The notes below the pieces were generated by a model that saw only the letters and a list, made by a program, of their open reading frames with translations, searched no databases and was not told where the DNA came from. Below are positions 16,871 to 54,286 of a DNA stretch of 64,000 bases, piece by piece. The stretch is from the NCBI RefSeq assembly GCF_900460065.1, contig NZ_UAVD01000025.1, forward strand, positions 1 to 64,000, in the 5' to 3' direction. This DNA comes from Streptomyces griseus. Its GTDB lineage: Bacteria; Actinomycetota; Actinomycetes; Streptomycetales; Streptomycetaceae. Both the position numbers and the translations under genes were made by a program. Positions within the stretch are counted from its first letter, which is position 1; each line of letters opens with the position of its first letter.

Positions 16871-16957
16871 AACTTACTCATCCTGCCCCCTTGACTCCGG
16901 TTCCGGAAGACCTCCGTGATGTTTCCCACCGATTTGATCGATCATTTTTTCCACGGC

Positions 16958-33308: not shown

Positions 33309-33555
33309 GTGCTCCCCCGTGCACTCGTCACTCACCCCGCGCTCGCGGGAGCCCTATTAAGCAGCAACCCGGCTCCGCGCGGCAGGCGAGAAGTGGCCAT
33401 TTCCCGAATCCGCCGCCGCGGCCGTGGCCGGTGTCTGCGGGGCCGGGGGGCGAAAGATGGGGGCGACTCCCCCATGCGCCCCCACCCGCTCCCCCGCCAC
33501 GATGGACGCGGGCGGCCCGACCGGGGCCGGCCCGGGACCGGGGAGGTGCGGAGCG

Positions 33556-36500: not shown

Positions 36501-36894
36501 CTGGTGCGACGGGGCGGCCGGTATCGCGCTGGCGATCGCGGACAGCCCCGACGCGCTGGTGGACCCGGAGCTGTCCGGCTGGCTCGCCGCGCGCTCCGCC
36601 GAGCTGGCGGGCATCGGTCCGCTCGCCGACGACAGCCTGTGCCACGGGGAGTCGGGGCTGCTGGAACTCCTCGGCCACCGTGCGCTGCCCGCCGCGCGAC
36701 CCGCGTGGATGCGCCGGGCCGGAACGCTGCTGGCCTCGGCGGACCGGGCGGGCCCGCAGTGCGGGACACCCGGCCGCGTACCGCATCCGGGGCTGCTCAC
36801 CGGGCTCTCCGGGATCGGGCACGGCCTGTTGCGGGCCGGGTTCCCCGACCGGATCGGGTCCGCGCTGCTCCTGCGCCCCTCCGGGGCCCCCTGA
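33556..36894 (+). CDS. lanM: Class II lanthipeptide synthetase LanM
   Basis: An 1112-residue bifunctional enzyme that dehydrates Ser/Thr in a precursor peptide and forms thioether rings. Residues about 110-640 are the dehydratase (DUF4135), with RLVYKPRPLAAHRHFNALAEW and GTDLHHENLIACGPHPVLVDVETLF carrying kinase-like ATP and phosphate residues. Residues about 720-1112 are the LanC cyclase with all zinc ligands: Cys984 in AWCDGAAGI, Cys1029 and His1030 in SLCHGESG. The N-terminus has four 16-residue tandem repeats (about 44-107), not seen in ordinary LanMs. Start GTG 33556 (VTEKDL) has GGAG upstream. The only small gene after it encodes a peptide without cysteine. Confidence 0.93.
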   Translation: MTEKDLIDRGPSRRPAAAVPFASAPVTPGASAPAVSAESAAAVPVGSSPAVSVESAPVVPVGSAPAVSTGSTPAAPVGSGPVVSGASAPVVPVGSAPAVPLGSSPTAPVASVAALFSTVGEPWWLPGVVGGGPSGEPGWAVFAREAVASAPRDVEVADRAYPGLSGFGPIVAPFVEASARRLQDAPAVGGSAADGPTGDGSALLADFRRQLTRRLSRIAARTLVTELHEARRLGRLSGEGAKERFRDFVRRTARRDGLALLVTGYPVLARLLATACLNAGDAFAEMAARLAADRHLLAPSGVLGDRAGSPEGGRGGSTGPGALTGVEAGAGDSHRGGRSVMLLRFADGTRLVYKPRPLAAHRHFNALAEWFGSLSGAPELRVLRVLDRGEYGWAEYVEERPCATAAETRLFYRRQGALLALLHTLDGTDLHHENLIACGPHPVLVDVETLFHPPLGPARSSDPAARALHDSVHRVGLLPQLLVGDTTALDMSAIGGGRAASSPIETADWADAGTDRMRLVRRAGLFTESANRPRMGGVAADPSAFTEALCGGFRAGYTAISEHRDELLGSDGLLRLFARDEVRVVPRPTWTYTTLLDESTHPDLMRDAAERHQVLSLLRTPLLGVPALPGVEDEEVAELWCGDVPVFGTRPGSTELWSGTGRTVPGQPDGETAGPTGLARVEAKVRAMDTVDRQDQERIIRAAMVSTSPEPPHRSAPGGRSRSAATAPEPEQLLSAARSVGDQLVSLAYRHERRTNWIGLELLGERYWRLTPMAADLAGGYTGPALFLAQLAALTGASRYAEAAREALTPVPGLLDTLHGRADELGALGSGAFAGLGGIAYALTEVGTLLGDREVLDQAGPAVRLSCAASAAEDGYGVRGGAAGGLVSLLAVHRATGRPEAWRGAERCAERIAAAPLPDAAGFADGAAGIGWALLRFAGAGGDASHRSTGLAALRRATAGANRATAIGTAPEPAARAATGSAWCDGAAGIALAIADSPDALVDPELSGWLAARSAELAGIGPLADDSLCHGESGLLELLGHRALPAARPAWMRRAGTLLASADRAGPQCGTPGRVPHPGLLTGLSGIGHGLLRAGFPDRIGSALLLRPSGAP
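33685..33876 (+). repeat. Four 48-bp repeats in the LanM N-terminal region
   Basis: Units begin at 33685, 33733, 33781 and 33829, each encoding a 16-residue block beginning PVGS. Together they make an extended Pro/Val/Ser/Ala linker, LanM residues about 44-107. Confidence 0.85.
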
Positions 36895-40469: not shown

Positions 40470-42392
40470 ATGACCCGACCTCCCGCCCGTACCGGCTCCG
40501 CAGGTGCGGTGCACGTCTCCCTGCTCGGCCCGCTCACCGCCCGGCTGGACGGCCGTGAGCTGCCGCTCGGCCCGCGAAAGCAGCGCCTGGTCCTCGCCAC
40601 GCTGCTGGCCCGCCCCAACACCCCCGTGCCGGTGGGCGTGCTGACCGACGCGGTGTGGCCGGACGACCCGCCCCGGACCGCCCGCAAGAACCTCCAGGTC
40701 TACGTCAGCGCCGCCCGCACCCTCCTGGGGCCCGCCGGGGACGGGGGCCGGGACCGGGTGGTGCACGGTTGCGGGGGCTACCTCCTGCGCATCGCCGAGG
40801 CGGAGCTGGACACCCTGCGGTTCGGGGCGCTGGCCCGCGCGGGGCGGGCGGCGGCCGGCCGGGGCGATCTGCCCGGCGCGGCCCGGCTGCTGCGTGAGGC
40901 ACTGGACCTGTGGGAGGGGCCGCCGCTGAACGATCTGCGCGACTCCGTCGGGGTCGCCGAGGAGGCCGACCGGCTGGAGGCCCGCTGTCTGACGGTGTTC
41001 GAGGACTGGGCGGAGACCGAGATCGAGCTGGGCCGGGCCGCCGTCGCGGTGGACGGGCTGCGGGATCTGGTGGAGCGCCACCCGCTGCGGGAGCGCCTCC
41101 GGGCCGCCTGGATGACCTCCCTGCACCAGTCGGGGCGGCAGGCCGAGGCGCTGGCGGTGTACGACGACTACCGGCAGCTGATGTCGCGGGAGCTGGGGCT
41201 GGAGCCGTCTCCGGCGATGGCGGCGCAGTACCGCTCGATGCTCGGCCGGGGGCGTGAGGCCCGGCGGCCCGCCGCCACCCGGGAGGCGGGGAGCGCGGGG
41301 GCGCTGCCCGCCTGTACGGGCGCGTTCACCGGCCGCCGCGACGAACTGCGGGACCTGCTGGACGTGCTGGGCGGTGGCGAGGAGCGGGTGGTGGTCGTCT
41401 CGGGTCCGGCCGGGGCCGGGAAGTCCGCGCTCGCGGTCCGGGCGGCGCATCTGCTCGCCGACCGTTTCCCCGACGGGCGCGTCCACGTCCGGGTGCGCCG
41501 GGAGGACGGTACGGCCCGGAGCCGGGCGGAGGTCCTGGCCGAGCTGGGACGGCTGTGCGGGGTGGCCGGCGCCGCGCCCGCGGGGGCGGCGGGCGGCCCG
41601 GCGGACGCGCGCGGGGCCACGGCGGCCCTGGCGGACGCCTGGCAGGGGTGGCTGGCCCGGCACCGGGCGCTGGTCGTCCTGGACGGCGTGCCGGACGAGG
41701 CGGCCGTCCGGGGGCTGCTGCCCCGGTCCGGGAAGTGTTCCGTACTGGTCACCGCCCGGGGGCAGTTGGCGGGTCTCGCTCCGGTACACCGGATCGCGTT
41801 GCCCGCGCTGGCGGACGGTGAGGCGCTGGAGCTGCTGGGGAAGCTGATCGGGGCCGGGCGGCTGCGGACCGACCCGGGGGCGGCGTTACGGATCGTCCGG
41901 GCCTGCGGGGCGCTGCCGCTCGCGGTCGAGGTGAGCGGGATGCGGCTGGCGGTGCTGCGGCATCTGCCGCTGGCGGAGTACGCGGCCCGGCTCGACGACC
42001 CGTCGGCCGCGCTGGACGAACTGGTCGCCGGGGACGTCTCCGTACGGGACCGGATCGCGTCCGGCTGGCGGGACCTCGGGGACGGCGACCGGTGGGCGCT
42101 GGGCCGGCTGGCGGAGCTCGCCGAGGACGGGGGCTTCGCCCTGGACCGGGCCACGGCGGCGCTGGGCCGCGGGGAGCGGGCGGCGATCCGGGCCGTGGAG
42201 TCGCTGATCGGCGCGGGGGCGGTGACCTCGCCCGCCGGGGAGGTCACCGCGCACGCCGCGCTCTACGAGGTGCCGAGGCTGCTCGCCCTGTACGCCCGTG
42301 AGCGGGAGGCTGCCGCCCTGCCGGGGGCCCCGGACCGGCCGGAGGCCCCGGACCTGCCGGGTGTGCAGGCCTCCGCGCTCATCCCAGGGTGA
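40470..42392 (+). CDS. SARP/AfsR-family regulator with NB-ARC domain and a TTA codon
   Basis: A 640-residue regulator. Residues 10-105 are the OmpR-type winged helix (VHVSLLGPLTARLDGRELPLG, LTDAVWPDDPPRTARKNLQVYVSAAR), 110-255 the BTAD domain, and 280-560 an NB-ARC ATPase with Walker A VVVSGPAGAGKSALAVRA. The C-terminal TPR part of full AfsR is absent. ATG 40470 follows CCGGAGG. Leu473 is a TTA codon (41886-41888), so it too should require the bldA tRNA. Its last 14 bases overlap the 3' end of the convergent lanKC gene. SARPs bind 11-bp direct repeats; such a repeat lies at 46841-46862. Confidence 0.91.
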   Translation: MTRPPARTGSAGAVHVSLLGPLTARLDGRELPLGPRKQRLVLATLLARPNTPVPVGVLTDAVWPDDPPRTARKNLQVYVSAARTLLGPAGDGGRDRVVHGCGGYLLRIAEAELDTLRFGALARAGRAAAGRGDLPGAARLLREALDLWEGPPLNDLRDSVGVAEEADRLEARCLTVFEDWAETEIELGRAAVAVDGLRDLVERHPLRERLRAAWMTSLHQSGRQAEALAVYDDYRQLMSRELGLEPSPAMAAQYRSMLGRGREARRPAATREAGSAGALPACTGAFTGRRDELRDLLDVLGGGEERVVVVSGPAGAGKSALAVRAAHLLADRFPDGRVHVRVRREDGTARSRAEVLAELGRLCGVAGAAPAGAAGGPADARGATAALADAWQGWLARHRALVVLDGVPDEAAVRGLLPRSGKCSVLVTARGQLAGLAPVHRIALPALADGEALELLGKLIGAGRLRTDPGAALRIVRACGALPLAVEVSGMRLAVLRHLPLAEYAARLDDPSAALDELVAGDVSVRDRIASGWRDLGDGDRWALGRLAELAEDGGFALDRATAALGRGERAAIRAVESLIGAGAVTSPAGEVTAHAALYEVPRLLALYAREREAAALPGAPDRPEAPDLPGVQASALIPG

Positions 42393-45000
42393 GCAGATCC
42401 AGCAGATCGTGCGGCCGGTCGCCGGCGGGGGCCCCGAGGGAGGGTCCGCCGGCTTCCGCACCGGCCAGGAAGTACAGGGACAGCAGCAGCCCCGCCGCTC
42501 CGGTGGCCAGGTCGGCGGAGCAGCGCAGCAGCCCCGCCCCCGGGACGAGCAGCCGGTCCTCGTCGGCGACCAGGTGCCAGGACAGGTTGCGTACGGAGGC
42601 CAGGACCCCGGGGGCCGTACGGCCCTCCGGCGACAGGGCGCCCGCCACGGCCATGAGCCCCGCCCGGCCGGTGAACAGCCCCGGCTCGCGGACGAATTCG
42701 AAGGCGCAGCCCCTGGCCACCCCGGGCAGCAGGGCGGCGAGCTCCGGGGACTCGCGGCGGGCCAGCCAGGCCCGGGCCACCAGGGCGAACCCGCCGCTGC
42801 CCTGGTCCAGGTAGAGGAAGTGCCGTCGGCCGTCCTTCACCTGGACGGTGCCGTCCGGCATGGTCACGCAGTGGGCCGCCTCCGCCTCCAGGGCCCGGCC
42901 CGCCGCGAGAAGGAACCGCTCGTCGCCGGTCATGGCGTGCAGTTCGAGGTGGAGCAGGGCCGCACCGCTCAGCCCGCGCAGCAGACCCGCCGAGGCGGGG
43001 GCGCGCAGCCCCGGCACGGACTCGCCCCGCACCAGCCGGTCGAGGTCGTGGGCGGTGCGGGCGGCGGCGTCGACGAGGTCGTGGTCGACCTTGGCGTCGG
43101 GCGAGGCGCCCTCCGCGCGCTGGGGGCGGGCGAGGCGCAGCGCGGCGAGGGCGACGCCCGCGCGGCCGTTCATCAGGTCGGCCGAGGCGGACGGGGGCGC
43201 GGCGGCGCACCGTTCGTAGAGTTCCCGGCCCTCCTCCCGGCGGCCCAGCGCGGACAGCACCACCGCGGTGCCCGGCAGCCCGCCGTAGAGGCCGCCGGGC
43301 GACGCGGGATCCTGGCGCCGGGCGGTGTCGGCGAGCCAGTCGGTCCAGGCGGGCGGCACCGGGGCGCCGGTGCGGTGCAGGGTGTGGAGCACCCCGGCCG
43401 CCCCGTGCGCGACGTCGGTCCCGCCGGTCGAGAAGGCCTGGGGGTCCCCGGGGAAGAGGCGGTCGGTGCGCTCGGGCGTCGCCCCCGCGTGGATGCCCCG
43501 CAGCAGCCGGTCCCGCAGCCCGGCCCAGTCCGGCCGCGGCCCTTCGAGGAGCGCGGCGGTCTCCCGCTCGCGGCCGTCGGTGCTCTCCGCGGCCCGCAGC
43601 GCCGCGGGCCTGCGCGGTCCCGCTCCGGCGTCCAGGCCGTACCTCCGGCGGGCCCAGCGTTCCAGCGTCAGGGCCTTGGCCCGGTCGTGGCCGGCCATCT
43701 CCATGATGGGCATCAGCATGTAGAGCCAGGTCGCCCAGAGCGCGTAGGCGTCGGCCTCGGCGCCGACGGTCCCGGCGGGCGCCTGGAGCCCCGGTGCCCC
43801 CGCCACCGGGGTGTCCGGGTCGTCGAGGGCGGTGGCGTACTCGAAGTCGATCAGGGCCACGCGGCCGTCGGGGCGGATGATGACGTTGGAGGGGTGCAGG
43901 TCGCCGAAGCGCAGACCGCGCTCGTGGACGGCGGCCAGCGCCGCGGTCAGCCGCTCGGTCACCGACTCCACCCAGTCGGTGTACGGGGCGAGTTCGGCGG
44001 CCGTGCCGGTGGTGTGGAGCAGGGCGAAGCGGCCGACGATCTCCTCCAGGAGGGTGGTCCCCTCGATGTGCTCCTCGATCAGGAAGTGGTGCTCCCACAC
44101 GGTCCGTACGCCGTACACCTCGGGAACGCAGTCCAGCCCGGCCAGCGCGGTCAGGGCCCGGTGCTCGCGGCGCAGCCGGGTGACCGCGTCGTCGCCCGCC
44201 TCGTCCAGCCCGCTGTGCGGCCTGGCCTCGCGGAGCACCACCCGCCGGCCCGTCTCCCGGTGCCGGGCCAGGTAGATGCCGCCCGCGTTGGAGAACTGGA
44301 GGGATTCGGAGACGTCGTAGGGGAAACCGGCGTCCCCGGCCGCGGCGCGGGCCGCCAGGTGCGGGCGCAGCGCGTCGGGGACGGTGACCCACGGCGGTAT
44401 CCGGAACACCACCCCGCGCTCGTCGGGCACCAGTTCGCCCGAGGGGTGGCGCAGGGCGAGGACCCGTTCCCCGTTCCCGTCGAGGCACCAGCGGGAGACG
44501 AACGCCCCGTACCGGATGTACACCGGGGCGTCGCCGATCCGCAGGTCGCTGAGGATGTAGGGGCCGCGGCGGCCGGCGAGGGCGCGGGTCAACTCGTCCA
44601 GCACCCGCAGGAAGACGCGCTCGTCCGGCGGGTAGAGCGTGATGAACTTCCCGGCGCCCGCCCGGGACATGTACTTGCCCGACATCAGCAGGAGCGCCCG
44701 CTCGCTGCGGAGGAACTTGAACGGCACCCCGTGGGCCCGGCAGATCCGGGCGGTGTCGAGCAGGGTCTCCTCGGCCTCCTCCGGGACGGTGGAGACGTGG
44801 ATCTTCCAGCCCTGCCCGGCCGGTTCACGGCCCTCGGGGAGCAGGGAGGTCCACAGCCCGCCCGCGACCCGGCGCCAGCCGTCGGCCGGCGGCTCCGAGT
44901 CCAGCGGGTAGCGGGTGCTCTCGTCCTTCAGCCGGGCAGGGGTCTCGTAGTACGTACGGTCGGCGAGGCAGTAGAGCTGGGTCTGCTGGAGACCGGGCAC
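42379..45000 (-). CDS. lanKC: Class III lanthipeptide synthetase LanKC
   Basis: An 873-residue three-domain RiPP enzyme of the RamC/AmfT type: N-terminal phospho-Ser/Thr lyase part (about 1-220, with KIHVSTVPEEAEETLLDTA and GKFITLYPPDE), a Ser/Thr-kinase-like domain (about 240-520, with FGDLHPSNVIIRPDG near residue 366 and IDFEY in the DFG place), and a LanC-like cyclase (about 560-873). The cyclase lacks the Cys-Cys-His zinc site (LFTGRAGLMAVAGAL instead), as is normal for class III. GTG 45000 is placed by GAGGAGG, which overlaps the stop codon of the upstream MFS gene. It should modify the LDLQ-leader peptide encoded at 46558-46713. Confidence 0.93.
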   Translation of the reverse strand: MPGLQQTQLYCLADRTYYETPARLKDESTRYPLDSEPPADGWRRVAGGLWTSLLPEGREPAGQGWKIHVSTVPEEAEETLLDTARICRAHGVPFKFLRSERALLLMSGKYMSRAGAGKFITLYPPDERVFLRVLDELTRALAGRRGPYILSDLRIGDAPVYIRYGAFVSRWCLDGNGERVLALRHPSGELVPDERGVVFRIPPWVTVPDALRPHLAARAAAGDAGFPYDVSESLQFSNAGGIYLARHRETGRRVVLREARPHSGLDEAGDDAVTRLRREHRALTALAGLDCVPEVYGVRTVWEHHFLIEEHIEGTTLLEEIVGRFALLHTTGTAAELAPYTDWVESVTERLTAALAAVHERGLRFGDLHPSNVIIRPDGRVALIDFEYATALDDPDTPVAGAPGLQAPAGTVGAEADAYALWATWLYMLMPIMEMAGHDRAKALTLERWARRRYGLDAGAGPRRPAALRAAESTDGRERETAALLEGPRPDWAGLRDRLLRGIHAGATPERTDRLFPGDPQAFSTGGTDVAHGAAGVLHTLHRTGAPVPPAWTDWLADTARRQDPASPGGLYGGLPGTAVVLSALGRREEGRELYERCAAAPPSASADLMNGRAGVALAALRLARPQRAEGASPDAKVDHDLVDAAARTAHDLDRLVRGESVPGLRAPASAGLLRGLSGAALLHLELHAMTGDERFLLAAGRALEAEAAHCVTMPDGTVQVKDGRRHFLYLDQGSGGFALVARAWLARRESPELAALLPGVARGCAFEFVREPGLFTGRAGLMAVAGALSPEGRTAPGVLASVRNLSWHLVADEDRLLVPGAGLLRCSADLATGAAGLLLSLYFLAGAEAGGPSLGAPAGDRPHDLLDLLTLG

Positions 45001-45010
45001 GGGATCCTCC

Positions 45011-46393
45011 TCAGGGTGTGCCGGGGCCCGCGGCGTCGGGGGCCGGCCCGGCCGTGGTCCGCTCCGGGGCGGTCGCCGGGCGGGTGGGGACGGTTCCGGC
45101 CGGTTCCGGGTCCGGCCGTTCGGGCAGCTGCGGCGTCGCCGGCTCCTCCCGCGGCTCCGGCGCCCCGGCCGCATCCGGCTTCTCCCCCACCGCACCCGCC
45201 CCGGCGCGGACGGACGGCGCGAGCGTCACGACGGCCGCCGAGACGGCCAGCACGCAGCCGATCACGACGAAGGCGGCGCTGCTGTCCAGCGTGGTCAGCA
45301 GGAAGCCGCCGACGAGCGGGCCGAACGGCTGGACCAGCGAGGAGAGGAAGCCCGCGGCGCTCTGCACCCGCCCGATCCGGTCCTCGGGGGTGACGACCAG
45401 CAGGGTGGAGAGGAAGCCGATGCTGGCGACCGTCGAGAGGCACATGCAGAGCGCGCAGAGCAGTCCGGCCACCAGCGGGCTGCTGAGCCAGGCCAGGACG
45501 CCCGCCGTCGCCACACAGCTCCAGCAGGTGAGGACGATGAGCGTCCGGACGTGGCGCTCCGCGGCGAACCGGGGCGCGATCAGCGCACCGGCGAGGGCTC
45601 CCGCCGAGACGCAGGTGATGACGAAGCCGCCGCCGAGGCCGGAGCGCCCGCCGTCGGAGAAGACGGCGAGCGCCGTGAAGGTGAGGGCGCCGAAGGAGAA
45701 GTTCATGCCCAGCCCGAAGACGAGCAGCACCGTCCGCAGATAAGGCAGTTGCCACAGGAAGGAGAGTCCCGCGGTGAGCTCCCGGCGGCTGAACACCGAG
45801 CCCGCCCGGCTCCTGGCCTTCGAGCGGGTCCGTACGAGCGCCACACAGACGGTGGAGAGGAGCAGCCCGAGGAACTGGGCGGTGAAGGGCAGGGCCTCGT
45901 GCACGCCGAACAGGGCGCCGCCGACCAGCGGCCCGACCAGCCGGGCCGTGGAGGTACGCGCCTGGAGCCGGGCGGTCGCCGTGCTCATCCGGTCCGGCGG
46001 CACGACCGCGCGCATCAGACCGAAGGCGGCGGGGGCGTAGACGCTGTTGAGCACGGCGCCGGCGGTCGCGACCAGGAGGACGAGGGCCATCGGGGCGTGC
46101 CCGTTCCACACGGCGACGGCCAGCGCGGTGACGGCCGCCAGGCTGCCCACGTCGCACAGCCGCATCAGCCTGCGGCGTTCGACCCGGTCGGCCATGACCC
46201 CGCCCGGCAGCATCGTGATCAGCACGGCGCAGACGGCCACGGTTCCCACGGCGCCGGCCTGCACGGCGGAGCCCGTCTCCTTGAGGACCAGCAGGGGCAG
46301 CGCGATGGCACTCATCTGGCCGCCGAGAACGGCGAAGAGGCCGCTCAACCAGAGCAGCCGGAAATCCCGGTTGGAACGGAGCGACTCGGCCAT
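45011..46393 (-). CDS. MFS exporter of the class III lanthipeptide unit
   Basis: A 460-residue EntS-like major-facilitator transporter with about 10-12 helices. Motif A is LPGGVMADRVERRRLMRLCD and the conserved central part is RLQARTSTARLVGPLVGGALFG. The last 70 residues are a Pro/Glu/Thr-rich cytoplasmic tail. ATG 46393 has GGGAG upstream. It lies between the precursor gene and lanKC (10-bp gap), where class III clusters often carry ABC transporters instead, so it is the probable exporter of the mature peptide (inference). Confidence 0.88.
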   Translation of the reverse strand: MAESLRSNRDFRLLWLSGLFAVLGGQMSAIALPLLVLKETGSAVQAGAVGTVAVCAVLITMLPGGVMADRVERRRLMRLCDVGSLAAVTALAVAVWNGHAPMALVLLVATAGAVLNSVYAPAAFGLMRAVVPPDRMSTATARLQARTSTARLVGPLVGGALFGVHEALPFTAQFLGLLLSTVCVALVRTRSKARSRAGSVFSRRELTAGLSFLWQLPYLRTVLLVFGLGMNFSFGALTFTALAVFSDGGRSGLGGGFVITCVSAGALAGALIAPRFAAERHVRTLIVLTCWSCVATAGVLAWLSSPLVAGLLCALCMCLSTVASIGFLSTLLVVTPEDRIGRVQSAAGFLSSLVQPFGPLVGGFLLTTLDSSAAFVVIGCVLAVSAAVVTLAPSVRAGAGAVGEKPDAAGAPEPREEPATPQLPERPDPEPAGTVPTRPATAPERTTAGPAPDAAGPGTP

Positions 46394-46557: not shown

Positions 46558-46713
46558 TCAGCCCAGGACGAGGCTCACGGTGCTGACGCAGTTGCCGGGG
46601 ACGTCGATGATCTCGTGGTTGCCGGCCGTCTCCTGGAGGTCCAGGACGGAGTGCGCCTCGACCTCGGGGGTCTCCTCGGCGTCGCCGGCCTCGGGCTTGG
46701 TGTTCTCGGACAT
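46558..46713 (-). CDS. Class III lanthipeptide precursor with LDLQ leader motif
   Basis: A 51-residue peptide missed by length filters, ATG 46713 with GGAGA six bases upstream. The acidic leader (MSENTKPEAGDAEETPEVEA) is followed by HSVLDLQETAG, the L-x-L-Q element recognised by LanKC enzymes. The probable core ends GNCVSTVSLVLG. It has one cysteine, and the Ser/Thr residues lie after it, the reverse of the Ser-x2-Ser-x3-Cys labionin pattern of SapB/AmfS peptides. The operon order precursor-hairpin-MFS-lanKC supports the call. The ring chemistry cannot be predicted from this core. Confidence 0.85.
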   Translation of the reverse strand: MSENTKPEAGDAEETPEVEAHSVLDLQETAGNHEIIDVPGNCVSTVSLVLG

Positions 46714-47035
46714 GATGGTCTCCATCCACTCGTCACAGCGGGGCCGGGTTCCGTCGGGGATCGCCCCTCGGTGTCCGGTGCGGCCGGCTGGTGCCTGCCG
46801 TTGCCGAGAACGTTAGGAAGCCGGGCCTGGCAATCGCTTCGGCGTCGGTATGGCGCCGGTATCGGGCCAGTTGACGGTGTACGGGGGCCGGTTCGCGACC
46901 GTTCGCGGCGGCCCGCGGACCCGCTCCGACCTGGGCCCATACCGCCGCCGAACCACCTTCGGACCGTCCCCGAACCGGTGCCGCGCAGCCTGGGTACGCG
47001 CCCGACGCGCCCCGGCCCCGAAGGAGGCGGCCCGC
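46714..47035. other. 322-bp divergent control region of the RiPP locus
   Basis: Separates the class III precursor gene from the radical SAM gene. It contains an 11-bp tandem repeat (46841-46862), a second pair GTTCGCGACC/GTTCGCGGCG (46891-46910), TTGACG (46871-46876) as a possible rightward -35, and TAACGT on the minus strand (46816-46811) as a possible leftward -10. No gene is supportable in it. Confidence 0.55.
46841..46862. promoter_or_regulatory. SARP-type 11-bp tandem direct repeats
   Basis: GGCGTCGGTAT (46841-46851) is followed directly by GGCGCCGGTAT (46852-46862), 10 of 11 bases identical. Direct repeats with an 11-bp period are the binding mode of SARP regulators. The location between the two divergent RiPP operons and the SARP gene at 40470 make it the best candidate site for control of both. 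Confidence 0.6.
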
Positions 47036-48160
47036 ATGGAACTCGCCGAACTCGTCGCACGGCGGCCCTTCCCGGCCGCCGGTCTGCTCCTCGGCCTCAC
47101 CCGGCGCTGCCCGCTGAGCTGCGCGCACTGCTCGACCGGGTCGGACCTGTTCACCCGGGAGGAGCCGGACGGCGGTCAGCTGGAGCGCTTCGTGGGCTCG
47201 TTCACCGAGGTGGACCGGCCCGACATCGTCATGCTCACCGGCGGGGAACCCCTGCTGCTGCCCGCGCTCGCCGAACGGCTGAGCACCCTGGCGCGCGGTG
47301 CCGGGTCCCGTACCGCGCTGCTCAGCGGCATGTTCTTCGCCCGGTCCGGGAGCCGGCGGGGCCGGAGGGGCGCGGCGATTCCCCCCGCGATCCTGCGCGC
47401 GATCCGCTCCGTCGACCACTTCTCGGCCTCCCTCGACCTGCACCACGAGCGCGAGGTGCCGCGCGCCGACGTGTTCCGCGCCCTGCACCGGATCCGGGAC
47501 GAGGGCGTGGCGGTGAGCTTCCACCTCACCGGGACCGGTGCGGCCGACCCGTATCTCGCCGACATCACCCGGGCGGTGGAGCGGGAGTTCGGCGGCCGGG
47601 TCCCCTGCCTGGTCAACGAGGTGCGCCCGTTCGGCCGGGCGGCCTCCTGGGCCAGGCCCGCCCGTACCGGCCCCGACCCCGCGGCGGCCTCCCCCTGCTC
47701 GATGGCCGCCTGGCCGGTGGTCGCCTTCGACGGCCGCGTACTGGCCTGCTGCAACCAGGACACCGTCGACAAGCGGCCCGTCCCGGCCCATCTGGACCTC
47801 GGGCACATCGGCGCCGACGACTGGGGGACCGTACGCGCCCGGGCGCTGGAGTCGCCGGTGCTGCGCATGCTCCGCACGGTCGGGCCGACGCATCTGGCCG
47901 CCCGGTACGGCTCCGGCCCCGGGGCGGGCTCCTACTGCGACGGGTGCCGGGCGCTGGGCGACGACGAGGCGGCGGCGGCCGGGGCGCTGGCCGTGGCGGG
48001 CGGGGCGGCCGGGGCGCTGCTGGACCTGACGGCCGCGGTGCGCGGCTCCCGGGAGGGTGCGCAGGGCGTCGTGCGCCGCCACGGCTGTGCGGCCTACGCG
48101 CCCCTGGTCGTCACGGGCGGGCCACCGCTGCCGGAGACCGAGGGGCGGGACGTCCGATGA
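47036..48160 (+). CDS. Radical SAM enzyme of the RiPP locus
   Basis: A 374-residue radical SAM protein. The cluster-binding CPLSCAHC gives Cys25, Cys29 and Cys32 of the CxxxCxxC motif; VMLTGGEPLLLP is the SAM-binding GGEP element. The C-terminal part has CSMAAW, ACCNQDT and SYCDGC, cysteines suggesting an auxiliary SPASM/twitch-like iron-sulfur site. ATG 47036 has AAGGAGG upstream. It overlaps the next gene by 4 bp (ATGA). Such enzymes install thioether, C-C or epimer changes in peptides; here the target may be the 72-residue protein two genes on or the divergent class III peptide (inference). Confidence 0.9.
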   Translation: MELAELVARRPFPAAGLLLGLTRRCPLSCAHCSTGSDLFTREEPDGGQLERFVGSFTEVDRPDIVMLTGGEPLLLPALAERLSTLARGAGSRTALLSGMFFARSGSRRGRRGAAIPPAILRAIRSVDHFSASLDLHHEREVPRADVFRALHRIRDEGVAVSFHLTGTGAADPYLADITRAVEREFGGRVPCLVNEVRPFGRAASWARPARTGPDPAAASPCSMAAWPVVAFDGRVLACCNQDTVDKRPVPAHLDLGHIGADDWGTVRARALESPVLRMLRTVGPTHLAARYGSGPGAGSYCDGCRALGDDEAAAAGALAVAGGAAGALLDLTAAVRGSREGAQGVVRRHGCAAYAPLVVTGGPPLPETEGRDVR

Positions 48161-48912
48161 GCACCGCGACCGACGGCACACGGGTCGGGCACGCGGGGGC
48201 GTCGGCCCGGCTGCGGGTCAAACTGCTGCTGCTGGAACCGGAGTTCCGGGACGCCACGCACCACATGTGGCGCGCCGACGGGCTGTTGCCGCGCTACCGG
48301 ACGTATCTGTGCACCATGCACGCCGTCATCCGCGCCTCCGTCCCGCTGATGGAGCTGGCCCTCGACCGCACCCGCGCCCTGGCCGGGTCCGGCGATCCGC
48401 TGGCCGTGCCGCTCGCCGCGTACCTGGAGGAGCACATCCGGGAGGAGGCGGACCATGACGCCTGGCTGCTGGAGGACCTCCGGGCGGCGGGCGGCGACCC
48501 CCGGGACGCGCTCGACCCCCTGCCCTCCCCCCTGGTCGCCTCGCTCGTCGGGTCCCAGTACTACTGGATCGAGCACCACCACCCGGTCGCCCTGCTCGGC
48601 TACATCGCCGTCCTGGAGGGCTACGCCCCCGCCCCGGGCCTGACCGGCCGCATCGCCCGGCTGACCGGGCTGCCCGCCGCCGCGCTGCGGACCGTACGGG
48701 AGCACTCGGTGATCGACACGGAGCACCTGGACGAGCTGTACGCGCTGCTCGACCGGCTACCGCTCGACCGGGGGCGGGAAGCGGCCGTCGCGGTCAGCGC
48801 ACTGCACTCCCTCGACGCGCTCACCAGGCTGTTCGTCCGGCTCGGGCGCTCCGCACCGGCGCCGTCGCTGCGGGGAGCCGGACTCGTCCCACCGATGGGA
48901 GTCACACCATGA
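48157..48912 (+). CDS. Haem-oxygenase-like iron-containing redox enzyme
   Basis: A 251-residue all-helical protein of the TENA/haem-oxygenase-like di-iron group. Likely metal residues are spread over helices: the Glu/His set in AYLEEHIREEADHDAWLLED (about 88-107), QYYWIEHHHPVALLGYIAVLEGY (about 130-152), and HSVIDTEHLDELYALLD (about 188-204). Relatives perform O2-dependent C-C or N-oxidation chemistry. It is translationally coupled to the radical SAM gene before it and the aroma-sacti gene after it (4-bp overlaps), so it most probably acts on the same peptide. Confidence 0.85.
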   Translation: MSTATDGTRVGHAGASARLRVKLLLLEPEFRDATHHMWRADGLLPRYRTYLCTMHAVIRASVPLMELALDRTRALAGSGDPLAVPLAAYLEEHIREEADHDAWLLEDLRAAGGDPRDALDPLPSPLVASLVGSQYYWIEHHHPVALLGYIAVLEGYAPAPGLTGRIARLTGLPAAALRTVREHSVIDTEHLDELYALLDRLPLDRGREAAVAVSALHSLDALTRLFVRLGRSAPAPSLRGAGLVPPMGVTP

Positions 48913-49127
48913 CCGGACCACCCGAGAACGGCGAACGGCCCGTGCTGCCCGCCGCCCTGTACGAGGCGGGCTTTCCCGTGGACCTGCTCACCGAGGAACA
49001 GCGCGAGGTGCTGTGCGGGCTGACGCCGGAGGAACTGGCGCTGCTGCTGGACGTCAAGGGCCGGCTGGACGCCGTGGGGCCGGAGGTCCAGGCGCACGGC
49101 GAGATCGCCGGCGGCGCCCTGTTCTGA
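48909..49127 (+). CDS. Aroma-sacti cluster domain protein, possible RiPP precursor
   Basis: A 72-residue protein. The middle, LYEAGFPVDLLTEEQREVL and LTPEELALLLDVKGRLDAVG, is the helical domain I recall being annotated 'aroma-sacti cluster domain' near radical SAM genes in actinomycetes (from memory, not checked). The C-terminal tail PEVQAHGEIAGGALF is short, Gly-rich and ends in an aromatic residue, as a core peptide might. The single Cys lies in the domain, not the tail. It is the third of three overlapping genes and is followed by a very strong terminator. It could equally be a recognition protein rather than the substrate. Confidence 0.78.
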   Translation: MTGPPENGERPVLPAALYEAGFPVDLLTEEQREVLCGLTPEELALLLDVKGRLDAVGPEVQAHGEIAGGALF

Positions 49128-49150
49128 CCGGCGGGCGGTGACCGATCACC

Positions 49151-49193
49151 GGTACGGCCCCGGCGGCGGGTTCAGGGCCGCCGGGGCCGTACC
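49151..49193 (+). terminator. 17-bp-stem terminator after the radical SAM operon
   Basis: GGTACGGCCCCGGCGGC (49151-49167) pairs perfectly with GCCGCCGGGGCCGTACC (49177-49193) around a 9-base loop, 24 bp after the aroma-sacti stop codon. Confidence 0.85.
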
Positions 49194-49245
49194 CGCCGGG
49201 GCACGGGCGCCCGGTGCGCCCGCCCGGCCCCTCACCGCACACCGT

Positions 49246-49341
49246 CCGACCGCACGCCCCCCGACCGCGCACGGGCGCCTGACCGCACGCCACCCCGCCG
49301 CACGCGCGCACACCTGACCGCACGGCACCTCCGACCGCACG
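49246..49341 (+). repeat. Degenerate CYGACCGCACG repeats upstream of the cyclase gene
   Basis: CCGACCGCACG or CTGACCGCACG recurs at 49246, 49279, 49314 and 49331, with weaker copies at 49261 and 49296. Spacing is irregular (11-35 bp). They fill the leader of the cyclase/AAA gene. Confidence 0.5.
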
Positions 49342-49365
49342 GCCCCCGGGAGAGAAGGACCCGCC

Positions 49366-52300
49366 ATGAACTGCTCCTCGTGCCAGCAGGATCTGCCGCC
49401 GACGGCCCGGTTCTGTTCGTCCTGCGGGACCCCGTGCGCGGCCACCGGGGCCGCCGGGGCCGGGCCGGTCCCCGCCGCGCCGCCCGGTGACGAACGCAAG
49501 CCGGTGACCGTGCTGTTCTGCGACCTCGTCGGGTCCACCGCGCTGTCGGGGGTGCTCGACCCCGAGACCCTGCGCACGGTGACCCTGCGCTACTTCGAGG
49601 CGATGAGCGCGGAGATCGTGGCGCGGGGCGGCACCCCGGAGAAGTTCATCGGGGACGCGGTGATGGCGGTGTTCGGCGTACCGGTGGTCCGTGACGACGA
49701 CGCCCGCCGGGCGCTGGCGGCGGCGCTCGGGATGCGTCGGGCGCTGGCCCGGCTGAACGAGGAGCTGGACGCCACTCTGGGCATCGAGCTGACCACCCGG
49801 ATCGGCGTCAACACCGGGCAGGTGGTGGCGGGTTCGGACACGACCGCCCGGCAGGCCCTGGTCTCCGGGGAGACCGTCAACATCGCCGCCCGGCTGGAGC
49901 AGAACGCGGGCCCCGGCGAGATCCTGATCGGCCCGGAGACCCTGCTCGCCGCGGGCCCGACGGTGCGGGCCGAACCCACCGGGCCGCTGCGGCTGAAGGG
50001 CAAGCGGGACAGCGTGGAGGCCTACCGGCTGCTGGCGCTGGGCGCGGACGACCCCGAGCTGCTGCGCCGCTTCGACGTCCCCTTCGTCGGCCGCGACGCC
50101 GAACGGCGTTCGCTCGACGCCGCTTTGGAGCGAGCCGTCCGCGGCGGCGGGGCCGGGCTGCTGCGGGTCACCGGGGAGGCGGGCATCGGCAAGACCCGGC
50201 TGGTACGGGAGTGGCTGTCGCGACGGTCGGCGTCCGGCGCGCTCACGTACGGGGCGGGGCGGTGCCGCAGTTACGGGGACCACGGCACCCTCGCCCCGCT
50301 GGCCGACGCGGTGCGCTCGCTGGTGGCGGTGGGGCCCGCATCCGATGCCGGGCCGGGCTCCGGGGCCGGATCGGCGGCGGGGTCCGGGCAGGCGCCGGAG
50401 CCTGGGCCCGGGTCCGGTCATGTCTCCGGGCAGGCGTCCGGTCGGATGCCCGGCGCCGCGGACGACGGGAAGGACACGGCGGGTGGTCTGGCGGTCGACG
50501 ACGCGATGGCCCTGCTGTCCGGGGGCCTCCTGCGCGACGGTACGCCGAACGCGCCGTTCGAGGACATGTGCGCGGCCCTGACGGCGGTCCTGGAGCGGGC
50601 CGCCCGGGCCCGCCCGGTCGTCCTGGTCCTCGACGACTGGCACGCGGCGGCCCCGTTGCTGGTCCGCACGGTGCGCCGGCTGACGGACGGCTCGGGGTGC
50701 GCGGGGGTCCTGGTGGTCTGCGCCGGGCGGCCCGACGGACCGGACGGCGCGGAGGGCCCGGGAGCGCCGGAAGGGCCGGACGAGGGGGTCGAGGGGGACG
50801 GGTCCGCCACCGGTGCGGGGCGCCTCCTGCTCACCGGTCTGCCGCCCGGGGAGGCGGCGCGGCTCGCCGCCGGTCTGGCGGGGCCGGACGCCGGGCCCGC
50901 CCCGGTGGACGACCGGCTCCTGGCCCGGGCCGGCGGCAATCCGCTCTACCTGGAACAGCTCCTGATCGGCGACCGGGCGGACCCGGCGGTCGCCGCCCGT
51001 CCGGGGGAACCGGCGGCCGAGGAGGATCTGCCGCCCACGCTCCAGGCCCTGCTGGGCGCGCGCATCGGCGCCCTGGCCCGGGCGGAGCGCGGGGTGGTGG
51101 ACCTGGCCGCGGTGATCGGACGGGAGTTCACCGCGGCGGAGCTGGTCCGGCTGGAGCTGTCGCTACGGGCCGGGGAGGGGCACGACGCCGGGCAGCTCGC
51201 CGGGGCGACCGGCGCGGCCGGGGCGGCCCCGGAGCACCGGCGGCGCGTCGAGGAGGCGTTGGCCGTGCTGGGCCGTCGCCGGCTGGTGGAGTCGGGGGCC
51301 CCGGGGTCCCGGGAGCCCGCGCCCTACCGGTTCAGCAGCGGACTGGTGCACGAGGTCGCGTACGCCTCGCTGTCCAAGCGGGCCAAGGCCGAACGCCATG
51401 CCTGGGCGGCGGAGCTGCCCAGCGTGCTGCGCAGCGGCGACGGCGCGGTCGGCGGCCATCTGGAGCGGGCCTACCGCTACCGGGCGGAGCTGGGCCTGCT
51501 GGACGATCCGGCCCGGCGGCTGCGCGAGCGGGCCGCCGCGGCGCTGGGCCGGGCCGGGGCGCAGGCCGCCGCCCGGTCCGACCTGCACTGGGCGCACGGC
51601 CTGCTGGAGCGGGCGGTGGACCTGTGCCCCGGGGACCCGGCGGCGACCCGGCGGCTCGGCGAGGTACGGGTGGCGCTGGGCCGCACCGTGGAGGGCGCCG
51701 AACTGCTGCGCCTCGTCCGGGACTCGGGGGGCGACCCGGTGGAGGCCGCCCATGCCCGCCTGGCGCTCGCGGTGCTGGATCCGGGCGGTCCGGGTCCCGG
51801 CCCCGCCGCCGTGGCCCGGGCCGTGCTGCCGGTGTTCGAGGCGGCCGGGGACTCGGCCGGCCGGGCGCGGGCCCATCTGCGGCTCTCCCAGCAGTTCCAG
51901 CGGTCCGGTCGGCACGAGGAGGCGGAGCGGGACCAGGCGCGGGCCCTGGAGCACGCGGTGCTGGCCGGCGCGGAGCCGGAACGGGCCGGGGCGCTCGGCG
52001 CGATCGGCGTCTCCCTGTGGCGGGGGCCGGTTCCGGTGCCCGAAGCGGTGGACCGCTGCCGGTCGCTGCTGGCGGCGCACGGGGCGGGCCGGCCCACGGT
52101 CCGGGTCACCCTCAACTGCCCGCTGGCGGTGCTGCACGCGCTCCAGGAGCGGCCCGACGAGGCATACCGCTGCCTGGCCGAGGCGGAGCGGCTCGCCGGG
52201 AAGCTGGGGTTCGCCGAGGCGGAGGTCTTCCTCCCGGTGTTCCGGGCGGCGGTGGAGGCACTCCTCGGCAACGGCCCGGAGGCCCTGGACCTGCTGGGGC

Positions 52301-52761
52301 GGGCGGACGCGGCGGCCCGGCGCACGGGGGCGGCCGGGATGCGGACGGCGGTGGCGCTGGACGCGGCCCGCCTGGAGCTGGACGCGGGCCGGGAGGCCCC
52401 GGCGGCGGCCCGGCTGGCGGGCGTCGGCGACACGTCGGGGCTGAGCCGCGCGGACGCGGTGGACCTGGCGGGGCTGCGGGCCCGGCTGACGGTGCGCGAC
52501 CGCCCGGAGGAGGCGGCGGAGCACGCGGACCGGGCGGTCCGGGCCTCGCTGCTCACGGACTCCCCGCTGGTGCAGGCGACGGCCGAGCTGGACCGGGCGC
52601 AGACGCTCGCCGCCCTGGGCCGGTGGCCGGAGGCCGAGGCCTCGGCCCGGTCGGCCGGGGCGCACTTCACGGGCAAGGGGCATCTGCCGGGGGTGCGCCG
52701 GGTCTCCGGCTTCCTCGCGCACCCGCCCCGGCCGCTGGCCACGACGAGGGAGAGGAGCTGA
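49366..52761 (+). CDS. Zinc-ribbon / class III nucleotide cyclase / AAA ATPase / TPR protein
   Basis: An 1131-residue multidomain signalling protein. Residues 3-20 form a zinc ribbon (Cys3, Cys6, Cys17, Cys20). Residues about 45-215 are a class III adenylate/guanylate cyclase: metal Asp53 in VLFCDLVGSTAL, Lys93 and Asp97 in EKFIGDAVMAVFG, and the Asn/Arg pair in GETVNIAARL, so catalysis looks possible. Walker A is VTGEAGIGKTRLVREW near residue 270, then NTPase and TPR-like repeats to the end. No HTH is visible. ATG 49366 follows GAGAAGG. The subtilisin gene starts 3 bp after its stop. It may sense a ligand and control the neighbouring protease or RiPP genes (inference). Confidence 0.88.
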   Translation: MNCSSCQQDLPPTARFCSSCGTPCAATGAAGAGPVPAAPPGDERKPVTVLFCDLVGSTALSGVLDPETLRTVTLRYFEAMSAEIVARGGTPEKFIGDAVMAVFGVPVVRDDDARRALAAALGMRRALARLNEELDATLGIELTTRIGVNTGQVVAGSDTTARQALVSGETVNIAARLEQNAGPGEILIGPETLLAAGPTVRAEPTGPLRLKGKRDSVEAYRLLALGADDPELLRRFDVPFVGRDAERRSLDAALERAVRGGGAGLLRVTGEAGIGKTRLVREWLSRRSASGALTYGAGRCRSYGDHGTLAPLADAVRSLVAVGPASDAGPGSGAGSAAGSGQAPEPGPGSGHVSGQASGRMPGAADDGKDTAGGLAVDDAMALLSGGLLRDGTPNAPFEDMCAALTAVLERAARARPVVLVLDDWHAAAPLLVRTVRRLTDGSGCAGVLVVCAGRPDGPDGAEGPGAPEGPDEGVEGDGSATGAGRLLLTGLPPGEAARLAAGLAGPDAGPAPVDDRLLARAGGNPLYLEQLLIGDRADPAVAARPGEPAAEEDLPPTLQALLGARIGALARAERGVVDLAAVIGREFTAAELVRLELSLRAGEGHDAGQLAGATGAAGAAPEHRRRVEEALAVLGRRRLVESGAPGSREPAPYRFSSGLVHEVAYASLSKRAKAERHAWAAELPSVLRSGDGAVGGHLERAYRYRAELGLLDDPARRLRERAAAALGRAGAQAAARSDLHWAHGLLERAVDLCPGDPAATRRLGEVRVALGRTVEGAELLRLVRDSGGDPVEAAHARLALAVLDPGGPGPGPAAVARAVLPVFEAAGDSAGRARAHLRLSQQFQRSGRHEEAERDQARALEHAVLAGAEPERAGALGAIGVSLWRGPVPVPEAVDRCRSLLAAHGAGRPTVRVTLNCPLAVLHALQERPDEAYRCLAEAERLAGKLGFAEAEVFLPVFRAAVEALLGNGPEALDLLGRADAAARRTGAAGMRTAVALDAARLELDAGREAPAAARLAGVGDTSGLSRADAVDLAGLRARLTVRDRPEEAAEHADRAVRASLLTDSPLVQATAELDRAQTLAALGRWPEAEASARSAGAHFTGKGHLPGVRRVSGFLAHPPRPLATTRERS

Positions 52762-52764
52762 CCG

Positions 52765-53679
52765 ATGACGACCACGGAATCGGAACGGCCACGGACGGAA
52801 CCGGAACGGCCGCGGACGGCCCCGGGGCAGGGGCTGACCTGGAGCCTGCGCGGGCGCGGCCCGGAGGACGTACCGGTGCTGGCGGACCCCGGGCCGCCGC
52901 TCGGCCGCCCCACCGGGCCCGCCACCGGGCGCGGGGTGCGGGTGTGCGTGGTGGATTCGGGCGTGGAGCGGGACCATCCGCTGATCGGCCCGCTCGCCGG
53001 TTCCTGGGTGGTCGTCAAGGACGCGGAGAGCGGGGAGATCACGGTCGAGCCGACGACCACCGGGGACACCTGCGGGCACGGCACCGCGTGCGCGGGCATC
53101 GTCCGCCGGACCGCCCCGGAGTGCGAGATCCACAGTGTGCGGGTGCTCGGGGAACGGTTCTCCGGCACCGGCGACGTCCTGATGGCGGGGTTGCGCTGGG
53201 CGGTGGAGCAGGGCTTCGACGTGGTCAACCTCAGCCTGTCGACGACCCGTACGCGGTTCGCGCAGGAGCTGCACAGCCTGGCCGACAGCGCCTACTTCGC
53301 CCGTACGGTGATCGTCGCCTCGGCCCACAACACCCCGGTGGAGAGCTTCCCCTGGCGGTTCGCGTCGGTGATCTCGGTGGGCAGCCACCAGGAGGACGAC
53401 CCCGAACTCCACCTGTACAACCCCGAGCCCCCGGTGGAGTTCTTCGGGCCCGGCCAGAACGTGACCGTGCCGTGGCTGGGCGGCCGGACGATCCGCACCA
53501 CGGGGAACAGCTTCGCCACGCCGTACGTCGCCGGGCTCTGCGCCCGCGTCCTGTCCGCGCATCCGCGGATGACGGCCTTCCAGCTCAAGAACGCCCTTTA
53601 TCTGTCCGCGGCCAATGTGCGCCACACGCCGCGTCCTTCCACTGCGGCAGGAGATATCCGTGATGACTCCGAGAACTGA
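52765..53679 (+). CDS. S8 (subtilisin-like) serine peptidase, intracellular
   Basis: A 304-residue compact subtilase with a complete triad: Asp64 in VCVVDSGVERDHP, His105 in CGHGTACAGIV, Ser249 in TTGNSFATPYVAG, and the oxyanion Asn189 in VIVASAHNT. There is no signal peptide and almost no pro-domain, so it should act in the cytosol. It could remove a RiPP leader or process a partner of the cyclase protein (inference). Start ATG 52765 with GAGGAG upstream, 3 bp after the cyclase gene; its end overlaps the GAF gene by 17 bp. Confidence 0.9.
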   Translation: MTTTESERPRTEPERPRTAPGQGLTWSLRGRGPEDVPVLADPGPPLGRPTGPATGRGVRVCVVDSGVERDHPLIGPLAGSWVVVKDAESGEITVEPTTTGDTCGHGTACAGIVRRTAPECEIHSVRVLGERFSGTGDVLMAGLRWAVEQGFDVVNLSLSTTRTRFAQELHSLADSAYFARTVIVASAHNTPVESFPWRFASVISVGSHQEDDPELHLYNPEPPVEFFGPGQNVTVPWLGGRTIRTTGNSFATPYVAGLCARVLSAHPRMTAFQLKNALYLSAANVRHTPRPSTAAGDIRDDSEN

Positions 53680-54286
53680 TCCCGCTCCGTCCCTCTCCCC
53701 CACCGCCGCCGCCACGGTCGCCGACGCCCCGCGCCGCGAGCTGCTCCAGTCGGTCGTCGACGTGGCCCGCGCCATCTTCGGGGCCGAGGCCAGCTCGGTG
53801 TTCCTGCTCGACGAGGAGGCGGACGAGCTGGTCTTCCAGGCCGTGTCCGGGCAGGGCGAGGAGTTCCTGGTGGGCCGCCGGTTCCCGGCCGGCCGCGGGA
53901 TCGCCGGGTGGGTGGCGACCTCCGGCGAGCCGATGGTGGTGGACGACCTGAGCTCCGACACGTCGTTCGACCGGTCGCTGGCCGAGTCGACCGCGTACGT
54001 GCCGAACGCCCTGATGGCGGCCCCGCTCATCAGCGAATCCCGGATCCTCGGGGTGCTGGAGGTGCTGGACCCCTCCCCGCAGGCCAGGTCGGGCGTCCGG
54101 GAGCTGGACCTGCTCGCGATGTTCGCCCGGCAGGCCGCGGCGGCGCTGCGGGTGGTCACCCCGGAGCCGGTCCGCGAGGCCGAGCAGCGGGCGGCGGCCG
54201 GCGCGGGCGTGCTGGACGGTGCGCGGCGCGAGGACGCGCTGAAGCTCCTGGGTAGCCTGGAGCGGCTGCTGCGCGGCGTCGGCTGA
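53663..54286 (+). CDS. GAF-domain protein
   Basis: A 207-residue protein with one GAF domain, residues about 28-165: LLQSVVDVARAIFGAEASSVFLLD, GRRFPAGRGIAGWVATSGEPMVVDD, and NALMAAPLISESRILGVLEVLD. GAF domains bind small ligands, often cyclic nucleotides, which would fit the cyclase encoded two genes upstream (inference). The last 40 residues are helical and may contact a partner. ATG 53663 follows CAGGAG; it overlaps the peptidase gene by 17 bp, completing a coupled three-gene set. Confidence 0.85.
   Translation: MTPRTDPAPSLSPTAAATVADAPRRELLQSVVDVARAIFGAEASSVFLLDEEADELVFQAVSGQGEEFLVGRRFPAGRGIAGWVATSGEPMVVDDLSSDTSFDRSLAESTAYVPNALMAAPLISESRILGVLEVLDPSPQARSGVRELDLLAMFARQAAAALRVVTPEPVREAEQRAAAGAGVLDGARREDALKLLGSLERLLRGVG

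Follow-up and report, generated by a model that had tools for sequence, protein, structure and literature searches.

A putative two-peptide RiPP-type cluster with its own cyclase, subtilase and GAF processing module in Streptomyces griseus

Why should genes for a nucleotidyl cyclase, a protease and a GAF-domain protein stand directly behind a gene set that appears to modify a peptide? The question arises in a 64,000-nucleotide stretch of Streptomyces griseus DNA (assembly GCF_900460065.1, contig NZ_UAVD01000025.1, positions 1 to 64,000; hereafter the window), where a radical S-adenosylmethionine (SAM) enzyme (rSAM), a haem-oxygenase-like dimetal oxidase/oxygenase (HDO) and a 72-residue protein (P72) are encoded upstream of such a module and beside a class III lanthipeptide gene set. 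Our preferred answer, to which we give a probability of roughly 0.55, is that the locus is a two-peptide cluster of the ribosomally synthesized and post-translationally modified peptide (RiPP) type with its own processing module, in which P72 and the lanthipeptide precursor lanA are tailored separately and share one subtilase. The cyclase-protease-sensor set probably frees both peptides at the same short tag. The genes concerned are, in window coordinates:

40503-42392, + strand: SARP-type regulator (BTAD + NB-ARC; PF03704, 1.9e-38; PF00931)
42379-45195 (longest open reading frame; profile match from ~44979), - strand: LanKC, class III lanthionine synthetase (NF038151)
45011-46393, - strand: MFS exporter (PF07690), adjoining lanA in relatives also
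46558-46725, - strand: lanA, class III lanthipeptide precursor of 55 amino acids, containing PEVEAHSVLDLQ, with core ...GNCVSTVSLVLG
47036-48160, + strand: rSAM (PF04055, 4.7e-9), with the motif CPLSCAHC
48157-48912, + strand: HDO (PF14518, 3e-11)
48909-49127, + strand: P72, a RiPP-precursor-like protein (NF045560, 9.9e-23, 80.1 bits against a cut-off of 30)
49366-52761, + strand: cyclase, read as zinc ribbon, class III nucleotidyl cyclase, AAA (STAND-like) and TPR
52765-53679, + strand: signal-less S8 subtilase (PF00082), probable leader protease for [DE]VxAH
53615 or 53663 (start) to 54286, + strand: GAF-domain protein (PF01590)

Open reading frames (ORFs), Pfam and NCBIfam bear out the six genes from rSAM to GAF as the initial annotation had placed them, including the overlaps of 4 bp (ATGA) at the rSAM/HDO and HDO/P72 junctions. 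The same holds for its radical SAM assignment and for the absence of a signal from the subtilase, in which no hydrophobic N-terminal segment was seen by eye. Its description of the cyclase stands for the cyclase and AAA domains (PF00211 and AAA_16, both above the Pfam cut-offs), whereas the zinc-ribbon and TPR matches fell below theirs.

What kind of protein is P72? Both its score and its ATGA-coupled tailoring genes place it in the aroma-sacti family NF045560, as had been proposed. The helical NF045560 leader spans approximately residues 15-56 and is followed by PEVQAH and then by a near-invariant tail, GEIAGGALF. In the AlphaFold2 model the helices (residues 15-19, 29-36 and 40-56) are confident and the tail is disordered, with a predicted local distance difference test score (pLDDT) below 50 for residues 68-72. 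Differences per codon and pair among 38 sequences amount to 0.040 (non-synonymous) versus 0.226 (synonymous) in the last 15 codons, compared with 0.240 versus 0.237 in the other 42 codons read. Because the disordered tail is better conserved than the folded part, it points to a substrate or ligand, and P72, judged by its sequence, resembles a RiPP precursor. StsA-type sactipeptide precursors begin with a leader of the same family (the precursor in locus L082 scores 142 bits against the StsA-related model NF045559, cut-off 75); P72 itself reaches 25.1 bits (1.7e-5) and has no cysteine in its tail, which leaves it outside that sactipeptide family. A profile of P72 gave weak PDB matches only (best 1.4e-5, to an engineered cytochrome), and these were not used.

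Are the two enzymes encoded ahead of P72 equipped to act on such a tail? The rSAM cysteines C25, C29, C32, C221, C238, C301 and C304 are present in 49 of 49 sequences and C239 in 48, from which we infer an auxiliary cluster of SPASM/twitch-like type; against PDB sequences at E 0.01, the sole match was a weak one to PqqE (6c8v, E 0.005). Ten HDO residues are invariant in 31 sequences (H93, E96, E97, D101, D107, H140, E154, H183, D187 and H190), and the AlphaFold2 model (pLDDT 91) finds 3dde, haem oxygenases, UndA, CADD and HrmI among its Foldseek matches. The fold, together with the conserved carboxylate and histidine residues, assigns the protein to the haem-oxygenase-like superfamily, in keeping with its first description as an iron enzyme of that kind. 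PqqC shares the HDO fold.

These likenesses raise the alternative that the tail is turned into a redox cofactor of peptide origin, as in the mycofactocin and pyrroloquinoline quinone (PQQ) pathways, the aromatic residue being rearranged by rSAM, oxidised by HDO and clipped out. The near-invariant aromatic C-terminus agrees with this, as do the PqqE match and the presence of UndA and CADD among the fold matches, and MftC acts on the C-terminal Val-Tyr of MftA (PMC7491314). The PqqE match is too weak to carry much, however, and the piece expected to be released has nine residues rather than two. No client dehydrogenase or other recurrent client gene was noticed in the loci, though no dedicated search for one was made, and the SARP, the lanthipeptide genes and the exporter suggest a secreted product, which argues against a cofactor. 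We consider this origin of the tail quite unlikely.

If the tail is the substrate, its sequence should be read together with the enzymes around it. We counted the tails of 81 P72 copies that lie immediately upstream of a cyclase gene on the same strand, leaving out L073 (the contig of L011) and setting aside 14 copies divergent to the cyclase, which are mostly StsA-like and include those of L068 and L069. Tails end in F or W in 50 of the 81: in 50 of 50 at loci with HDO and in 0 of 31 at the others, where a clade lacking HDO carries ELKLV or similar. All seven later readable loci (L233, L243-L247 and L249) fit the pattern; L248, which is cut off, is uncounted, and L234 overlaps L233. The association is consistent with the tail as substrate, and with the gene coupling of P72 to HDO it gives indirect support to a possible affinity of P72 for the two enzymes. 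Counting it as many events was rejected, as the presence of HDO requires a single change on a tree of 74 subtilases and again on a wider tree of 77 (65 labelled), for which near-copies were thinned and the labels of added loci were assigned by hand.

P72 could also be a small adaptor, a leader-like helper that brings rSAM and HDO to another peptide, which in the window would be lanA. Its retention without HDO and module-type rSAM in one clade fits an adaptor, and so does the lanA or other motif-bearing precursor nearby in many loci, such as the four-repeat candidate of L247 and the single one of L246. Yet L035 and L072 have rSAM, HDO, P72 and the module without LanKC, and a motif scan of the two gave no convincing second precursor, turning up just frames of long genes and, a long way upstream in L035, one of 46 residues. 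In an adaptor the folded part should be the conserved one, whereas here it is the disordered tail; in L078, moreover, P72 is present as four copies in tandem, whose tails all end in W but fall into three kinds. On balance we think an adaptor role unlikely.

Several further precursor candidates were seen near related genes. Beside rSAM-HDO-P72, L247 has one at 14290-14745 (+) with four repeats around EPEV(V/I)AHSGEDTPWCG(V/I)NV, and L246 has one at 14462-14773 (+) with a single IEVVAHGEDEEAEAGCIVNNSSDIS. Near the cyclase module of L079, a candidate at 18024-18332 (-) ends CLWFSGQCALYYADS and bears the motif IDVVAH, accompanied by a different rSAM (16786-17979, -, PF04055); the same pair stands near the module in L080.

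Does the gene set hold together beyond the window? The initial annotation had called for a gene-neighbourhood survey of the six families. Scanning genome contigs with the rSAM as query yielded 40 loci, 38 of which were counted (L002-L039); L040, whose 3.4-kb contig covers HDO, P72 and a portion of the cyclase, was set aside. A Chitinophaga locus (L041; rSAM match of 37% over one fifth of the query, no neighbours) and an Ensifer plasmid match to P72 (E 0.01, no other module gene by tblastn) were taken as chance. All six families occur together in 33 of the 38 loci, and the five that fall short (L002, L027, L028, L031 and L038) all run off contig ends. Of the 38 loci, 35 have LanKC and 36 have SARP, in a near-constant Streptomyces order of SARP, LanKC, MFS, lanA, rSAM, HDO, P72, cyclase, S8 and GAF; S. 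anulatus is among the closest loci. The cluster is thus wider than six genes, and SARP, LanKC, MFS and lanA belong to it in Streptomyces. The idea of a peptide-modifying pathway with its own signalling and processing arm, put forward for the six genes, remains the best reading in that they co-occur, but the unit is larger than proposed, the intervening terminator is unconserved, and the halves are separable: one clade has P72, cyclase, subtilisin and GAF without HDO or module-type rSAM.

The leader family reaches further. NF045560 was found at E 0.001 in 6 of 396 genomes of a phylum sample (4 above the cut-off), in 13 of 394 of a class sample (12 above) and in 49 of 297 of a family sample, f89 (48 above). 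A further 60 stretches (20 + 40), read for gene setting, comprised HDO and rSAM with an F/W-ended tail; StsA-like CxC precursors, beside the module or solitary; precursors with a tail end such as NNNNCLC; the module by itself; and, in distant cases, just a P72-like protein, HDO and cyclase. The Cys-ended precursors of NF045560 type adjoin the module in L114, L118, L121, L143 and L153. The three-gene setting is that of L068, L069 and L071, from small distant actinobacterial genomes, and is perhaps an older form of the system.

What links P72 to the lanthipeptide genes next to it? LanKC scores 886 bits against NF038151 (cut-off 575) and lanA carries LDLQ, so that this half is a class III lanthipeptide cluster by synthetase score and LxLQ-type precursor. 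The two precursors have in common a pentamer, [DE]-V-x-[AG]-[HQ], within PEVQAH in P72 and PEVEAH in lanA. In 80 of the 81 module P72 copies the strict form precedes the tail and falls among the last 21 residues; of 51 aromatic tails, 42 have 9 residues after it. Among 125 P72-family matches, sactipeptide-type ones included, 118 have the loose and 112 the strict pentamer, the final residue being H in 85 and Q in 33. The pentamer of some sactipeptide precursors stands far ahead of the core. We infer cleavage after its H or Q. The pentamer is also found in 37 of 37 cluster lanA peptides (the window copy and 36 found by similarity). As a control we took the LanKC loci of 41 relatives, of which 30 loci were kept and read, 23 with a lanA candidate and 7 without; the pentamer is missing at 22 of the 23 and present in L223 only, approximately 11 kb from an S8 module. 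The lanA core has its Cys ahead of two Ser (CVSxxS), the reverse of the Ser-Ser-Cys order usual in class III peptides.

The same counts bear on the suggestion that chance has placed the genes of the lanthipeptide half (LanKC, MFS and lanA) next to an independent rSAM half. Each half does occur without the other, the rSAM half in L035 and L072 and LanKC at loci without the module. Against this, LanKC accompanies nearly every surveyed locus, and it still adjoins the module in L037, L039 and L085, where it is just 33-34% identical to the window LanKC; outside the module, moreover, the single lanA locus with the pentamer turned out to lie near a module after all. Chance adjacency is therefore quite improbable.

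If the pentamer is the tag, is the module's protease intact, and does it keep company with the tag elsewhere? In the S8 subtilase, D64, H105, N189 and S249, the triad and likely oxyanion Asn, are present in 74 of 74 sequences; its best models, mycosin and QhpE, both score under their cut-offs. In the cyclase, D53, K93, D97 and N172 (77 of 77) and R176 (76 of 77) are kept, with catalytic roles that we take over from class III cyclases, as are the P-loop residues G273, G275 and K276 (77 of 77). A profile of the subtilase run against 384 genomes of the class gave 13 matches of at least 400 bits in 12 genomes, the same 12 that have NF045560 above the cut-off in the 394-genome sample. A further 15 matches form a second group at 255-318 bits (four of 108-114 bits, with their loci, were left out), and a GAF protein pairs with the subtilase in 15 of these 15 loci. 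Small ORFs with at least two motif copies lie near the distant S8 genes in 7 of the 15; with eight control patterns the figure was 0-1 of 15, and around random centres it was 4 of 276. These ORFs carry tandem [DE][VT]x[GA]H repeats and, from their sequences, look like multi-core peptide precursors; six of them (all but L198) had no NCBIfam match and the L194 ORF no Pfam match:

L187, 8560-9069, - strand: tandem-repeat ORF beside GAF-S8
L189, 10629-10985, + strand: tandem-repeat ORF beside GAF-S8
L190, 10803-11096, + strand: tandem-repeat ORF beside GAF-S8
L191, 7414-7755, - strand: tandem-repeat ORF beside GAF-S8
L192, 3392-3667, - strand: tandem-repeat ORF beside GAF-S8
L194, 9828-10307, + strand: tandem-repeat ORF beside GAF-S8
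L198, 10589-10882, + strand: tandem-repeat ORF beside GAF-S8

By Pfam, Crp-like cyclic-nucleotide-binding proteins adjoin the protease in L189, L190, L192 and L196, and near GAF and S8 in three other distant loci lie MFS proteins whose C-terminal part is a cyclic-nucleotide-binding domain:

L187, 10033-11712, + strand: MFS protein with cyclic-nucleotide-binding domain
L191, 9865-11535, + strand: MFS protein with cyclic-nucleotide-binding domain
L195, 10233-11972, + strand: MFS protein with cyclic-nucleotide-binding domain

All 7 neighbours scanned, which represent seven of the 15 distant loci, thus have such a domain; they were picked by position and frame reading, the MFS proteins of L185, L188 and L194 being among those left out. 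The L191 MFS protein also weakly matches the bacteriocin-type transport-associated model TIGR03896. Since this second S8 group lies outside the window's own family, it supports both the link between motif and protease and the link to cyclic nucleotides.

A cyclase, a STAND ATPase and a protease could also make up the effector set of a defence or conflict system. For the cyclase, PADLOC does report matches to Pycsar cyclases (best 4.4e-15), and for the S8 protein it gives a subtilase model (2.7e-18). We judge these matches to be at superfamily level, however; none of the six proteins scanned was called a Pycsar effector by PADLOC, and the locus is fixed in place beside biosynthetic genes and SARP across many Streptomyces. 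A defence role is highly improbable.

In the two-peptide reading that we prefer, the helical NF045560 leader of P72 would present the disordered tail GEIAGGALF to rSAM and HDO, which would modify it, most likely on the aromatic residue at the C-terminus or close to it, while LanKC would modify lanA in parallel. The cytosolic S8 subtilase would then cut both peptides after [DE]-V-x-[AG]-[HQ], releasing products derived from GEIAGGALF and from SVLDLQ...VSLVLG, with the MFS protein as a possible exporter of a product. The cyclase, with its AAA/TPR part, and the GAF protein may gate the protease or the cluster via a cyclic nucleotide.

A broader and more doubtful possibility is that the module is a cyclic-nucleotide-controlled peptide-release system, widespread in actinobacteria, whose S8 protease frees short signal peptides after [DE]VxAH/GQ tags. 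The AAA/TPR part would sense a cue and the GAF protein would couple the cyclic nucleotide to the intracellular protease. The signals might be ELKLV in one clade, rSAM/HDO-modified GEIAGGALF in another and tandem-repeat peptides in distant lineages; lanthipeptide, sactipeptide and rSAM-peptide clusters would have adopted the module by putting the tag in their leaders.

Several observations weigh against the two-peptide reading. Because HDO presence changes once on the subtilase tree, its link to the aromatic tail amounts to one evolutionary event, and the association is unable to reach significance by independent pairs. In L068, L069 and L071, HDO occurs with V-ended tails, with no [DE]VxAH pentamer and with no rSAM in view. 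The clade lacking HDO keeps P72 (ELKLV), at several loci without a recognised tailoring enzyme nearby, so P72 may have a role free of modification. Seven of the 125 P72-family matches lack even the loose pentamer, and the 37 lanA peptides, having been gathered by similarity to a motif-bearing peptide, are no independent sample. Pfam detected no PqqD-like recognition domain in the cluster proteins scanned. An invariant core such as the near-invariant GEIAGGALF is unusual for an antibiotic-type RiPP. The GAF protein lacks, by regular expression, the NKFDE pattern of cyclic-nucleotide-binding GAF domains.

Three further features of the window complete the picture:

33424-36894, + strand: class II LanM lanthipeptide synthetase (TIGR03897, 685 bits), directly upstream of the LuxR-type gene
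37297-40227, + strand: LuxR-type AAA regulator (AAA_16 and GerE, Pfam), upstream of the cluster and kept in Streptomyces loci
49151-49193, + strand: hairpin in the P72-cyclase gap, a possible terminator, not conserved

No precursor for the LanM was identified with confidence in the window. The hairpin had been called a strong terminator. It is real, with a stem perfect over 17 bp, but has no T run, was not listed by a terminator scan and folds no better than shuffles of the region (z = 0.75). A perfect stem of at least 12 bp occurs in 11 of 34 P72-cyclase gaps, and a terminator as a conserved boundary of the locus was accordingly rejected.

If the two-peptide reading is right, one protease module and one tag serve several peptide classes that are not related to one another. 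This would ease the missing-protease problem of class III lanthipeptides in actinobacteria and would place a cyclase-GAF-protease set beside peptide maturation; GEIAGGALF would be a short candidate substrate for the rSAM/HDO pair. The tandem tag-repeat proteins in 7 of the 15 distant loci hint at further peptide systems, for which no family was found. The family names were already in NCBIfam, and the gene combination is new, as, on our analysis, is the pentamer common to P72 and lanA and fitting the reported ElxP motif; a cyclic-nucleotide-linked, tag-specific protease module, if demonstrated, would go further. Our literature searches found no product of such a gene set and no use of 'aroma-sacti'; for haem-oxygenase-like enzymes with RiPPs and radical SAM they returned azetidine amino acid biosynthesis only.

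How does the locus compare with known systems? Among the closest are the StsA-type sactipeptides (NF045559/NF045560), whose leader domain is homologous to that of P72. StsA is an actinobacterial sactipeptide precursor bound by StsC via a WxxP element (PMC12710340), and an StsA-like precursor lies divergent beside the same cyclase-S8-GAF module in many genomes (L116, L126, L129 and others). P72 differs in lacking a CxC core, a WxxP element and any cysteine in its tail, and the module rSAM and HDO were not found at StsA-type loci by module profiles at full score. The mycofactocin pathway is alike in having a radical SAM enzyme whose substrate is a short precursor, conserved and aromatic in its C-terminal region (PMC7491314), but it and the PQQ pathway differ from the locus in leader fold, protease class, tail length and partners. 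The TOMM system kinase/cyclase (TIGR03903) likewise combines a cyclase and an AAA region in a RiPP-associated signalling protein. The module cyclase falls outside that family (125 bits, cut-off 706), has no kinase domain by Pfam and a zinc ribbon in front, and no TOMM enzyme was seen.

The protease finds its likenesses among subtilases of peptide maturation, a role like that proposed here: AmyP, and the cytoplasmic ElxP and QhpE. ElxP, a cytoplasmic S8 protease, has the reported motif (D/E)(L/V)xxQ, and AmyP, of class III lanthipeptides, (T/S/A)EVE (PMC10885120); AmyP is not named in the available part of the lanthipeptide protease network paper (PMC8960859). The shared pentamer fits both motifs, a likeness at the level of motif; the AmyP-type EVE is in the window lanA (PEVEAH), not in P72 (PEVQAH), and is preceded there by P rather than T, S or A. 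QhpE is a cytosolic, single-turnover (suicidal) subtilisin that removes the leader from an rSAM-modified peptide (PMC7876137); with 102 bits against the 165 of NF049966, our subtilase stands outside that family, and the resemblance is one of working. The module protease differs from all three in its GAF partner and cyclase and in its presumed substrates, which come from several peptide classes.

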